Positions 24,764 to 47,153 of a stretch of DNA of 64,000 bases are shown here, piece by piece. Under the pieces are notes generated by a model. It made no database searches. It saw only the letters and a list, made by a program, of their open reading frames with translations, and was not told the DNA's origin. A program made the position numbers and the translations under genes. The DNA lies in assembly GCA_030041435.1 (NCBI GenBank), contig JASHNW010000115.1:102921-166920 (forward strand), written 5' to 3'. Positions within the stretch are counted from its first letter, which is position 1. Every line of letters begins with the position of its first letter. This stretch comes from Acidobacteriaceae bacterium. Lineage in GTDB: Bacteria; Acidobacteriota; Terriglobia; Terriglobales; Acidobacteriaceae.

Positions 24764-25483
<720 letters not shown>

Positions 25484-25485
25484 TC

Positions 25486-25590
25486 AGCCGGCAGCGGGTA
25501 GCCGGTGGCTGGCGCCTCAGGGCTTTCAGTCGGAAGCCGCTGCTTGTCCGCTGCAGGCTACAAGCTGCCGGCTACAGACCAGAGGCTAAG
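25486..25590. repeat. Degenerate heptanucleotide tandem array, 15 units
   Basis: The whole spacer between the two ABC ATPase genes divides into 15 consecutive 7-nt units without a single indel, e.g. AGCCGGC at 25486 and AGCGGGT at 25493; GGCTACA occurs at 25556 and again at 25570. Unit consensus is about RGCYGSY, drifting to GGCTACA at the right end. The array begins 2 nt after the upstream stop codon and ends 3 nt before the downstream ATG (25594), leaving no room for a normal Shine-Dalgarno. Confidence 0.75.
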
Positions 25591-25593
25591 ATC

Positions 25594-26298
25594 ATGATCC
25601 ACCTGAAAAACATCGAACGCAGTTACAAATCCGGCGCCGGCCAAACCTGGGTCCTGCGCCGCGTGGCCCTCGACATCAAGGAAGGCGAATTCCTCACCAT
25701 CATGGGGCCTTCCGGCGCGGGCAAATCGTCGCTGCTCAACGTGCTCGCCCTGCTCGACGACCAGTGGCTCGGCGAGTACTGGTTCAAAGACGATCCGGTC
25801 CACCCCATGAATCGCCGCCAGCGCGCCGAGCTCGCCAAGCGCAATGTCGGCATGGTCTTCCAGAGCTACCACCTGCTCGACGACCTTACCGTCCAGGAAA
25901 ATATCGACCTTCCCCTCTCCTATAAGGACATGCCCCGCGCCCAGCGCCAGGGTCTGGTCGCCGACACGCTCGATCGCTTCAACATCGTCGGCAAGAAAGA
26001 CCTCTTCCCTTCCCAGCTTTCCGGCGGCCAACAGCAGCTCGTGGGCATCGCCCGCGCCGTCATTCACAAGCCGGCGCTGCTGCTGGCCGACGAGCCGACC
26101 GGCAATCTGCATTCCAGCCAGGCAAAGGAGATCATGGAGTTGTTCCGCGAGCTGAATCAGCAGGGCACCACCATCGTCCAGGTCACGCACTCCGAGACCA
26201 ACGCCGCCTACGGCACGCGCGTCATCGAACTGCGCGATGGCTGGCTCGTTGCCGACACCGCCAATCCCAATCTCGGCGTGGAGGTCAGCGCATCGTGA
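25594..26298 (+). CDS. ABC transporter ATP-binding protein, second subunit
   Basis: 234 residues, paralogous to the preceding ATPase. Walker A GPSGAGKSS (~38-46), Q-loop MVFQSYHLLDDLT, signature LSGGQQQL, Walker B LLLADEPTGNLHS and switch His in QVTHSETNAAYG. Two differences from the first copy: the residue after LSGGQQQ is Leu instead of Arg, and the D-loop Asp of NLDS is His. Such changes often mark the degenerate half of a heterodimeric ATPase pair. The start abuts the heptad array and lacks a clear Shine-Dalgarno; the 3' end overlaps the TolC gene by 4 bp (GTGA). Confidence 0.9.
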   Translation: MIHLKNIERSYKSGAGQTWVLRRVALDIKEGEFLTIMGPSGAGKSSLLNVLALLDDQWLGEYWFKDDPVHPMNRRQRAELAKRNVGMVFQSYHLLDDLTVQENIDLPLSYKDMPRAQRQGLVADTLDRFNIVGKKDLFPSQLSGGQQQLVGIARAVIHKPALLLADEPTGNLHSSQAKEIMELFRELNQQGTTIVQVTHSETNAAYGTRVIELRDGWLVADTANPNLGVEVSAS

Positions 26299-29826: not shown

Positions 29827-29920
29827 CGAAACGCGAAAATGCCGGGGGCCCGTGACCCCGCCTGAACGAGCCGGGGCTGAGTCAAATGGATCTGCCCGCA
29901 CCTGGCAAATGTGGGATAGG

Positions 29921-29962
29921 CTGTCCCCTGTGCTCTGAGCTCTATGCTCCGATCGCTGATCC
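29921..29962. repeat. Heptanucleotide array abutting the histidine kinase start, six units
   Basis: Six 7-nt units from CTGTCCC (29921) and CTGTGCT (29928) to CTGATCC (29956), ending exactly at the ATG at 29963. Consensus CTGWKCY. No Shine-Dalgarno is present; the array occupies its place. Confidence 0.65.
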
Positions 29963-34947: not shown

Positions 34948-34966
34948 CTGTCCTGTACCCTGTCCT
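34948..34966. repeat. Short heptad-like repeat at methyltransferase start
   Basis: CTGTC then CTGTACC (34953) and CTGTCCT (34960), ending at the GTG start codon at 34967. Same unit type as the array at 29921. Too short to be compelling alone. Confidence 0.4.
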
Positions 34967-36413: not shown

Positions 36414-36857
36414 GTGGACTATCCCAACGCATTCATCGGTAAAAATACCAGGCCTTCTCCCGGCGAAATCGCCACTGCTCTCGGCTCCAGCGTGACTGCA
36501 TGGTCCCAGTTCATTGACTGGATGGTGAATGAGCAAGGCGTCTCCACCGAGGAGTGGCAATCCAGTTCCATCAAGCACGGCTGGTCCCTGCGTCTCAAAG
36601 TGAAGGGCCGAACCATCGTCTATCTGGCTCCGTGCAACGGATGTTTTCGTGCCTCTTTTGTACTTGGTTCCGGGGCCATCGAGGCCGCCCGCCACAGCAG
36701 CCTTCCGCAAAATGTAATTCAGGCGATCGAGAATGCCCCGCGCTATGCAGAAGGCACAGGCGTACAGATCCTGATCAAAGGATCGAGAGACCTGGCGCCG
36801 ATCCGTACTCTCGCGCAAATCAAGATTTCAAACGGATCGCCGGTTCCCGATCGCTGA
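36414..36857 (+). CDS. DUF3788-type protein
   Basis: 147 residues starting at GTG 36414, fixed by GGAGG 7 nt upstream. The N-terminus NAFIGKNTRPSPGEIATALG, the core GWSLRLKVKGRTIVYLAPCNGCFRASFVLG and AIENAPRYAEGTGV match the DUF3788 family as I remember it. The invariant-looking PCxGCF could bind metal or act as a redox pair. Cytoplasmic; function unknown. Confidence 0.75.
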   Translation: MDYPNAFIGKNTRPSPGEIATALGSSVTAWSQFIDWMVNEQGVSTEEWQSSSIKHGWSLRLKVKGRTIVYLAPCNGCFRASFVLGSGAIEAARHSSLPQNVIQAIENAPRYAEGTGVQILIKGSRDLAPIRTLAQIKISNGSPVPDR

Positions 36858-36882
36858 ACGCCGCACCCTGTACCCTAGAACC

Positions 36883-38126: not shown

Positions 38127-39329
38127 ATGTTCGCCCTCATCATCTCGGCCCTCACCGCCCTGCTCACGTTCGCCGGATTTGGCTACTATCTCGTCGCCCT
38201 CTGGAGCGCGCGCGCGTTTCTGCGCCGGATGCGGGCAACGCCCGGCTTCGCTCCAGCCGTCACCATCTTCAAATCCCTGCGCGGCGTCGATCCCGGTATG
38301 TACGAGGCCTTCGCCAGCCACTGCCGCCAGGATTACTCCGGCGACTACGAGCTGCTCTTCGGCGTCTCCAGCCTCGACGATCCCGCCGCCGCGCTCGTCC
38401 ATCGGCTGCAGGCCGAATTCCCCGACCGCTCCATCCGCCTCATCCTCTGCCCGGAATCGCTCGGCCCCAACGGAAAAGTCAGCAACCTCGCGCAGCTCCT
38501 GCCCCACGCCCGTTACGACTACCTGCTGATCAACGACAGCGACATCCATGTCAGCCCGCGCTACCTCGCGCGCGTCCTCGCGCCCTTCGCGCCCGCCGCC
38601 GGTACAAAGCCCGTCGGCCTCGTCACCGCGCTTTATCATGGCCGCGCCCACGGCACTGTCGGTTCGAAACTCGAAGCCCTCGGCATTTCCACCGACTTTA
38701 TGCCCTCCCTGCTCACCGCGCGCTACCTTGAGCGCGGCCTGCACTTCGGACTCGGCTCCACGCTCGCCGTCTCCCGCGAAGCCCTGAATGCCGCCTTCCC
38801 GCCTCCGGCCGGCCTCGTTCCCCTGGCCGAATACATCGCCGACGACTATCAGCTCGGCGCGCACATCGACCGCGCCGGATTCCGCGTCGAGCTGTGCGAC
38901 GAGATCGTCGAGACCTCGGTGCCGGCTTATACCTTCCGCGCCTTCCTCGATCACCAGCTGCGCTGGCTGCGCACCGTCCGCGACTCGCGCCCCGCGGGCT
39001 ACTTCGGCCTGGTGTGCGCCAACCTGCTTGCCTGGGCGTTGATCAACCTGATCGCCTCCGGCCTCAGCCTCTTTTCCATCGCGTTGTTCAGCATGGCGCT
39101 GTTGTTTCGCGTATGTCTTGCCCTCGGAGTCGGCGTCGGCATCCTCGACGACCGCCAGGTGCTGCGCGACCTCTGGCTCCTGCTGCCACGCGACCTCGTC
39201 GCCCTCGCCCTCTGGGCGTGGAGCTACGCCTCCGATACCGTGGTCTGGCGCGGCGAGAAGTTCGTCATCAAAAAAGGGAAGTTGATTTCGGGAACCGAAG
39301 CGGCGCAACCGCCAACTGCTGACTGCTAA
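38127..39329 (+). CDS. hpnI: HpnI-like glycosyltransferase (ceramide glucosyltransferase family)
   Basis: 400 residues. Membrane GT2/GT21 enzyme with an N-terminal helix (LIISALTALLTFAGFGYYLVAL), catalytic motifs VTIFKSLRGVD, LINDSDIHV, ADDYQLG (base) and HQLRWLRTVR (the (Q/R)xxRW motif), and three C-terminal helices. HpnI adds GlcNAc to bacteriohopanetetrol; the family also includes ceramide glucosyltransferases, so the exact acceptor is uncertain. Linked to hom by an 11-bp gap. The last residues (TADC) and the stop codon are encoded by the heptad array at 39314-39341, which suggests the C-terminus was extended or reset by the repeat. Confidence 0.75.
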   Translation: MFALIISALTALLTFAGFGYYLVALWSARAFLRRMRATPGFAPAVTIFKSLRGVDPGMYEAFASHCRQDYSGDYELLFGVSSLDDPAAALVHRLQAEFPDRSIRLILCPESLGPNGKVSNLAQLLPHARYDYLLINDSDIHVSPRYLARVLAPFAPAAGTKPVGLVTALYHGRAHGTVGSKLEALGISTDFMPSLLTARYLERGLHFGLGSTLAVSREALNAAFPPPAGLVPLAEYIADDYQLGAHIDRAGFRVELCDEIVETSVPAYTFRAFLDHQLRWLRTVRDSRPAGYFGLVCANLLAWALINLIASGLSLFSIALFSMALLFRVCLALGVGVGILDDRQVLRDLWLLLPRDLVALALWAWSYASDTVVWRGEKFVIKKGKLISGTEAAQPPTADC

Positions 39330-39341
39330 CTGCTTTCTGCT
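39314..39341. repeat. Heptanucleotide array across convergent stop codons, four units
   Basis: AACTGCT (39314), GACTGCT, AACTGCT and TTCTGCT, uninterrupted. It contains the HpnI-like stop (39327-39329) and reaches the YggX stop (39340-39342). Confidence 0.65.
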
Positions 39342-39612
39342 AGTGGCTCGGCGGCACGTACTCCTTCGGCAGCGCCGCGCCCTCACCGAAGAAAAACTGA
39401 TCCATCTGCTCCACCAGAAACTCCTGCGCCTGCGGAGTCCACGGCTGCAGGCGATACTCGTTCAGCAGCATCTTCTGCCGCTCGATCCACTCGCCCCACG
39501 CTTTTTTCGAAACGTTGTTGTAGACCTTGTGGCCAAAGTCACTGTCGAACGGAGGCTCGTCCAGCCCCTCCATCTCCTGCTTGTAACGCGAGCAAAAAAC
39601 CATGTGCGGCAT
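39340..39612 (-). CDS. yggX: YggX-type Fe(2+)-trafficking / oxidative damage protection protein
   Basis: 90 residues, the normal YggX size. The N-terminal MVFCSRYKQEMEGLDEPPF (single conserved Cys), KVYNNVSKKAWGEWIERQKMLLNEYRL and the FLVEQMDQFFFGEG end match the family. In enterobacteria it protects Fe-S proteins and helps iron handling. Convergent with the glycosyltransferase; monocistronic. Confidence 0.9.
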   Translation of the reverse strand: MPHMVFCSRYKQEMEGLDEPPFDSDFGHKVYNNVSKKAWGEWIERQKMLLNEYRLQPWTPQAQEFLVEQMDQFFFGEGAALPKEYVPPSH

Positions 39613-39707
39613 CGTGATCGGTCTCTCTCGCCTATTGTAACCAGGCTCCGTCTCGAACTTGCCCGTGGACTCCCCTGGGATTCAATCGATTGTTTACCAT
39701 GTTGTTC

Positions 39708-39735
39708 TATCCGCTACCCGCTATACGCTATACCC
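39708..39735. repeat. Heptanucleotide array, four units
   Basis: TATCCGC (39708), TACCCGC (39715), TATACGC (39722), TATACCC (39729), without indels, in the 295-bp gap between yggX and the secreted protein gene at 39908. Nothing else recognised in that gap. Confidence 0.65.
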
Positions 39736-39907
39736 TGCTCTTCGTAAGCAACCCATCTGCTTCTTCCCCACTCGCACACAGAGGGTGACGGCGCCATGAA
39801 TTCGGCATCGCACTGAAAGGCTGACCCACCTTGCCTCGACAACCATTAGAATCTGTACTCGTGAGGAACACCGGGTTCTCCCCAGCCCTTACCGGGAAAA
39901 CCAAAGC

Positions 39908-46415: not shown

Positions 46416-47153
46416 GGTATGGATCTCCTTGCGGGCGGCTTAGCCGCGCCTACCAAAGCCTATCCCCATTCCTCCCCGCGGGACAATCGGAAATCGCTCC
46501 CTACTGCCTGTATTTTCAGCCATTTGGAACCAACCTGGTCGACCCGGCATTCTAATTTGGGAGTAATCGAGGCCATTTCTAAAGGTCTTTACCTTCTTCA
46601 ACCATGGTGATAACCCAAACGTAATCAAAGAGAAACCCCCTGCATCCGGCAGGCGCCCGAGATATCGCCCTGAGCAGCTGTGCCGCATTCCCGGCTGCAC
46701 CATTTTGGTTCGGCATCAGAAGCGGATTCGGCAATTATCCTGGCGAGTTTTTAAAAAATGTAGCCAACGCCCGCGTCGGCAAAGCCGGAGCCGTCGTGTA
46801 TCTCCGACCTATAGGTTGGGCACCAACTCGCAAGGGCGGAGATTCTTCCGATTCCAGGCATCATCCACACCCGCGTAGAGCGTCTTCCCGATGACGGATC
46901 GTTCCGCAAAAACTGCGGAACGAGACTACCGCCTGGAACGCGTCATCCCCGTTACGCAGATCAGCGCGACCCTACAAGAGGCAGAACACCTTCCGTTTGC
47001 GATCGCGGCCCGTGAGGATGACACTGTAGATCATGCCCGCCGATCGGCAGCGCAAGGCCCGGAACCAGCAGAGCCGTTCTCGGAGCGGTCAAATCATCAG
47101 CCGCTTACCGCTACCCCTCCCCCGGAGTGAGCGATGATGATGGAAATCATGCC
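46416..47153. other. Long intergenic region upstream of rarA and of the membrane cassette
   Basis: About 740 bp without a convincing protein gene (a 79-codon frame at 46891 lacks any support). Several short complementary blocks cluster at 46755-46850: CGGC-AAA-GCCG, CGGAG...CTCCG, the palindrome ACCTATAGGT, GTTGG-GCA-CCAAC, and CGCCC pairing with GGGCG. This could be a structured RNA. A heptad array lies at 47101-47128. Confidence 0.4.
47101..47128. repeat. Heptad-like repeat upstream of rarA
   Basis: CCGCTTA (47101) and CCGCTAC (47108) followed by CCCTCCC and CCGGAGT in the same 7-nt register. Resembles the unit at 39708. Confidence 0.45.

Follow-up and report, generated by a model that had tools for sequence, protein, structure and literature searches.

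The spacer at positions 25486–25590 of the window (the whole 64,000-nucleotide stretch of Acidobacteriaceae DNA analyzed here) separates two ABC ATPase genes and consists of two heptamer arrays, or arms, split by a non-repeat core. On the forward strand, the left arm (25484–25512) is an AG-type array (AGCCGGC, AGCGGGT, AGCCGGT, GGCTGGC) that starts right after the TAA stop codon (25481–25483) of the upstream ABC ATPase gene. The right arm (25549–25590, forward strand) is a CT-type array (CGCTGCA, GGCTACA, AGCTGCC, GGCTACA and further units), the reverse complement of the left arm, and stops just short of the downstream ABC ATPase gene, whose ATG is at 25594. RNA of the spacer folds arm to arm into one hairpin (−59.7 kcal/mol, z-score −3.5) whose tip is the core (25513–25548, forward strand; GGCTTTCAGTCGGAAGCC). 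When we scored lag-7 self-identity against 2000 dinucleotide shuffles, the spacer reached 0.50 compared with 0.27 in shuffles, none of the 2000 being as good, and its self-match at neighboring lags was about 25%. The heptamer periodicity proposed in the original prediction is therefore real. Its description of the spacer needs one correction, in that the 15 units do not repeat a single direct unit: units 1–4 are AG-type and units ~10–15 CT-type, that is, reverse complements, and their common register comes mainly from a common GC.

Several other spacers of the window carry arrays of this type. A CT-type array at 29921–29962 (forward strand; CTGTCCC, CTGTGCT, CTGAGCT, CTATGCT, CCGATCG, CTGATCC) runs up to the ATG (29963) of a histidine kinase gene and has a lag-7 self-identity of 0.66, matched by 0 of 2000 dinucleotide shuffles. 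Between the stop codon of the response regulator gene and this array lies a conserved inverted repeat (29880–29925; CATCTG...CAGATGTGGGA type), also present in the orthologous spacers of L045 and L052, which is possibly a terminator or attenuator. A degenerate CT-type array (36840–36882, forward strand) runs to the ATG (36883) of a homoserine dehydrogenase gene; its short form at 36866–36882 scored 0.70 (8 of 2000 shuffles as good) and the longer segment 36840–36887 scored 0.63 (0 of 2000). Its last units read TACCCT-N6-ATG, a leaderless −10-like box, and the ending TACCCT-N6/7-ATG before homoserine dehydrogenase is kept in two congeners. The array of AACTGCT units at 39306–39341 (CT-type, forward strand; lag-7 self-identity 0.81 over 39314–39341, 1 of 2000 shuffles as good) lies between convergent genes. 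It supplies the TAA stop codon (39327–39329) of a glycosyltransferase gene, and the TAG stop codon (39340–39342, minus strand) of an Fe(2+)-trafficking gene (PF04362) overlaps with it, which shows that arrays encroach on gene ends. The glycosyltransferase C-terminus reads ...QPPTADC* with its stop codon encoded by the array, so that the two convergent genes end in one array. A further CT-type array (39707–39736, forward strand; CTATCCG, CTACCCG, CTATACG, CTATACC) lies in the divergent spacer that precedes the Fe(2+)-trafficking gene, and its lag-7 self-identity over 39708–39735 was 0.81 (1 of 2000 shuffles as good). Two more arrays named in the original prediction, at 47101–47128 and 34948–34966, did not individually exceed chance in the same test, with 177 and 150 of 2000 shuffles as good, respectively; the four at 29921, 39314, 39708 and 36866 passed it. 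In a scan of the whole window the top lag-7 segments all fell in spacers or at gene ends, and no Rfam family matched anywhere in the window.

The check suggested originally, mean autocorrelation at lag 7 against other lags over all spacers, gave a small excess (0.276 versus 0.266, with a standard deviation among other lags of 0.004); it is a weak test, the excess being small because arrays sit in only a subset of spacers. The excess becomes overwhelming when local segments are counted: within 1.04 Mb of this genome, part of which was selected for containing arrays, 48 spacer segments scored at least 15 at lag 7, compared with 0–8 at other lags, multiples of 7 aside, and an unselected 354 kb held 15 lag-7 segments with a score of at least 12, the median for comparison being about 2. 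Among 56 arrays detected without regard to sequence, 40 carried CTR (or YAG) in phase in at least 75% of units, where 35% would be expected (p = 2e-8), and the pattern (CTRNNCN)4 had 268 matches in the whole genome compared with 4 for the reversed pattern. The arrays are thus numerous, largely confined to spacers, and share a common grammar, CTRNNNN, or NNNNYAG in reverse complement. Unit sequence is largely locus-specific, with degenerate units of many types, but is not free, being held within this grammar. The longest array, of 29 units (L096:10121–10324), is a patchwork of few types (CTGATCG, CTGAGCT, CTGAACG, CTGTTCC and CTGCGCC).

Orientation follows the gene ends. In this genome 52 of 60 oriented arms were AG-type at the left end of a spacer or CT-type at the right end, whatever the gene direction (p = 1e-8). 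Our genes were called by a simple codon model, which places stops more reliably than starts. Within 9 nt of stop codons, 28 of 35 arrays were AG-type reading outward, and 18 of 20 next to starts had the AG strand outward; in phase, CT counted 86 versus 40 for AG upstream of starts, and AG 138 versus 54 for CT downstream of stops. Among named organisms of many phyla, in a sample of 118 loci collected by pattern alone, 88 of 106 arrays obeyed the same rule (p = 6e-12), and when only arrays no more than 30 nt from a gene end were counted, those obeying outnumbered those disobeying by 45:4 for stops and 11:3 for starts. The purine, AG-bearing strand therefore reads outward from the nearest gene end, be it a start or a stop, here and across many phyla, and the arrays hug gene ends so closely that they can even provide the stop codon.

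Where a spacer has arrays at both ends, the AG arm was the left-hand one in 28 of 30 pairs, and the arms are reverse complements with common units: arms of one spacer agreed at 4.84 of 7 positions, compared with 3.91 of 7 for arms of different spacers in the same genome (p = 4e-6). Some such pairs become a long hairpin, but hairpins are not general, the mean fold z-score being −1.1 in array spacers and −0.7 in controls. Swapping arms between spacers or species did not weaken folding significantly, and we rejected hairpin selection as a general cause. Strong arm-to-arm folds of the ABC ATPase spacer were found in the window's own genome, G010, G006 and G005, and any effect of the intercistronic stem-loop at 25486 on mRNA processing or stability is probably just a by-product. 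In a separate convergent spacer (L283:11034–11175) inverted CTAAACC arms, the plant-telomere heptamer (TTTAGGG), fold with a z-score of −6.7.

We compared orthologous spacers among congeners. The ABC ATPase gene pair is conserved in the genus (97–98% and 85–93% amino acid identity), and most of twelve spacers at this locus kept the 7-nt phase while their units changed; the phase was absent from three of them (G003, G008 and G007) and marginal in a fourth (G001). Five congeners have a core with GTGTG between the arms, mutually similar and different from the core in the window. This conserved core (e.g., ACACGCATTCGTGTGTGG) lies between the inverted arms of L004, L005, L006, L012 and L013, and a similar sequence, TCGTGTGTGGA, occurs in an inverted array of another class (L084:13903–14003). 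Upstream of the histidine kinase start, four congeners have CT-type units with phase and strand kept and sequence different, and at an hpnA-like gene CT-type heptamers run up to the ATG in 7 of 11 congeners, with none in the other 4. The expectation that orthologous spacers keep phase while changing units is thus borne out at the histidine kinase, hpnA-like and ABC ATPase loci. After FolE and IspF, an array is found essentially only in the window's own genome, and its lack in most orthologous spacers there implies that arrays are dispensable. The closest pair seen, G005 and G006 (~88% identical over the hpnA-like locus), has at the hpnA-like gene a 127-nt array spacer that aligns with no indel at 91.3% identity, compared with 92.0% for the adjacent coding sequence, so that in this one close pair 8.7% divergence accrued with no unit gained or lost; the ABC ATPase spacers of the same pair cannot be aligned to each other. 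Arrays can therefore be static at one locus and replaced at another. The indel-free phase does not by itself imply the proposed selection or templating, since an array interrupted by an indel escapes detection as a single array. Array spacers were not longer than array-less spacers, and a search along arrays for a gradient of homogeneity that would mark a growing end found no direction.

Within the phylum, (CTRNNNN)6 occurs in 125 of 297 genomes, with 1 to 2005 hits in each and a patchy distribution within genera, and the same grammar is found across many phyla, CTRNNCN arrays being present in several cyanobacteria. Five genomes (G042, G050, G077, G096 and G298) contain many matches to the reversed control pattern (NNNNRTC)6 and seem to carry heptamer arrays of another unit grammar. 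In some relatives a smaller excess of arrays with an 8-nt period accompanies the 7-nt one: L053–L057 (G017), L063–L067 (G015) and L296–L297 (G089) are the cases noted.

We found no description of heptamer repeats for Acidobacteriota in the literature searched; the remark that no equivalent had been described is nevertheless too strong, in that intergenic heptamer repeats are known in cyanobacteria, Xanthomonas and Beggiatoaceae and the grammar extends to many phyla. The present arrays are of the same broad kind, combining both general traits of bacterial heptamer repeats, tandem 7-nt units in spacers above chance and a location at gene ends with fixed polarity. The STRR heptamers of cyanobacteria, attributed to Mazel et al. 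in 1990 (cited in PMC4692102), are reportedly tandem and intergenic, as here, with few near-perfect unit sequences; measured against that definition of near-perfect copies of a few named heptamers, the arrays described here are degenerate and of many types. In phase-variation simple sequence repeats a change in repeat number switches a gene; for the present arrays the comparison is the one close pair, G005 and G006, whose hpnA-like spacers have the same number of units. REP/BIME palindromes are intercistronic inverted repeats that form stem-loops, as do some of the array spacers, whereas our arrays have no fixed palindromic consensus, have an internal 7-nt period and are commonly single-armed, and strong folding is limited to a minority of array spacers, where each REP/BIME copy is a palindromic hairpin. 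In Xanthomonas and Nostoc, GGGAATC and GGGGA(C/T)T (GGGNATC) heptamers are intergenic and near gene ends of all gene classes, with the G-rich strand being the non-coding one upstream and the coding one downstream (Rehm et al. 2015, PMC4692102). The unit length, location and polarity are those found here, and inverted pairs are possible in both (PMC4692102); the differences are that those genomes each have one G-rich consensus with G-quadruplex (G4) potential, while the present genome has no single consensus but many types within CTRNNNN, and of 60 oriented arms only about 10 belong to G4-capable arrays. The TAACTGA direct repeats (MacGregor 2015, PMC4679880), present in Beggiatoaceae, some cyanobacteria and Bacteroidetes, resemble the present arrays in that they fit CTRNNNN when rotated (CTGATAA) and lie on the forward strand just upstream of starts, replacing the Shine-Dalgarno region. 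They differ in having one fixed unit with related heptamers rare, whereas here units are many and arrays also follow stop codons.

As an origin we favor, at somewhat short of even chances, slippage-born heptamer arrays that drift in register and whose orientation is filtered at gene ends. On this view, slippage during replication or repair would create arrays in a 7-nt register, which would then drift by substitution within it and be rapidly gained and lost, their orientation being what survives the filter of gene expression signals at gene ends. A purine-rich sense strand upstream of a start would resemble a Shine-Dalgarno sequence, while CT-type units there would be neutral or might even act as a leaderless −10 box; downstream of stops, the opposite orientation would be tolerated. 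In the window's own genome Shine-Dalgarno sequences peak at −13 to −8. Upstream of predicted starts, a TANNNT box is sharply enriched at position −12, in 24 of 542 cases compared with about 4 per position (L093–L107, L256–L293 and the window), i.e., a set of leaderless genes exists beside Shine-Dalgarno genes. With this use of Shine-Dalgarno sequences and some TANNNT boxes, a purine-rich sense array before a start would be expected to do harm, and a CT-type array to be tolerated. The main weakness of this account is the stop side, which has no equally good filter argument; polarity is poorly explained at stops between convergent genes, where both neighbors only end. Also counting against slippage are the unremarkable length of array spacers, the G005/G006 hpnA-like spacer without unit change, although ongoing slippage should alter length, and the homogeneity gradient that marks no growing end.

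A broader alternative, which we consider possible but rather unlikely, is a general, undescribed bacterial process that writes 7-nt purine-strand repeats outward from gene ends and so gives spacers their AG ... CT polarity regardless of gene direction and phylum, the repeats described piecemeal in cyanobacteria, xanthomonads and Beggiatoaceae, together with the present ones, being its products. Also unlikely, in our estimate, is that selection maintains the arrays at gene ends as elements with a function in RNA or DNA, such as protein-binding ladders, intercistronic stem-loops or leaderless promoters. Phase, strand and position kept with changed units at the response regulator–histidine kinase, hpnA-like and ABC ATPase loci, a G005/G006 spacer that diverges no faster than coding sequence and without indel, CT at the end of the −12 to −7 box in 7 of 20 start-adjacent arrays, and the strong ABC ATPase folds in four genomes are all consistent with function; the arrays missing from most FolE and IspF and 4 of 11 hpnA-like orthologous spacers, the lack of a general tendency to form hairpins and, by inspection, the mixed functions of neighboring genes argue against it.

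Directional DNA synthesis, in which gene-outward 3′-ends would be extended with purine-type heptamers during break repair or fork restart, as at telomeres, and two extended ends joined to give AG–core–CT, is a live alternative, though an unlikely one. It would account at once for outward polarity at starts and stops, inverted arms and their common unit, and some units equal the plant-telomere-like CTAAACC. No candidate enzyme was found, and the ancestral core conserved between the arms in five congeners should have been removed by break-and-heal events. Of 55 array-rich genomes 30 lack Ku, the two richest among them, and Ku-dependent end healing is accordingly not required.

Mobility of REP/BIME-like palindromes by the Y1 (REP-associated) transposase is very unlikely: the arms are inverted and Y1_Tnp is present in 48 of 55 array-rich genomes versus 141 of 242 others (p = 4e-5, with genome size an uncontrolled confounder), but genomes with 9–14 copies lack arrays, seven array-rich genomes have no copy, no correlation exists within two genera and unit differences from locus to locus imply no mobile consensus, so that the transposase is neither necessary nor sufficient. 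It is hardly credible that G-quadruplexes cause the polarity, a proposal made for Xanthomonas and Nostoc, whose G4-forming heptamers have the same reported strand preference (Rehm et al. 2015, PMC4692102), because most arrays here lack four G3 tracts and 43 of 50 arrays without G4 potential still obey the rule, which rules out G4 as its general cause in this genome. In-phase capture of stop codons was rejected as a general origin, the case at 39306–39341 notwithstanding, since offsets after stops scatter over 3–5. A Rho site is a C-rich ladder with ~7-nt spacing; this explanation was set aside since the polarity also holds between convergent genes.

Over-representation of heptamers in bacterial spacers has been noticed before without an accepted cause; the present arrays extend a poorly known type of repeat and reveal an orientation rule. 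Polarity across phyla, its validity for non-G4 arrays, the common grammar and phase-keeping turnover turn the matter into a sharp question, namely what fixes the 7-nt register and, relative to gene ends, the strand. The solution would account for the making of a sizeable part of bacterial intergenic DNA and bear on the annotation of terminators, promoters and small RNAs in bacterial spacers.
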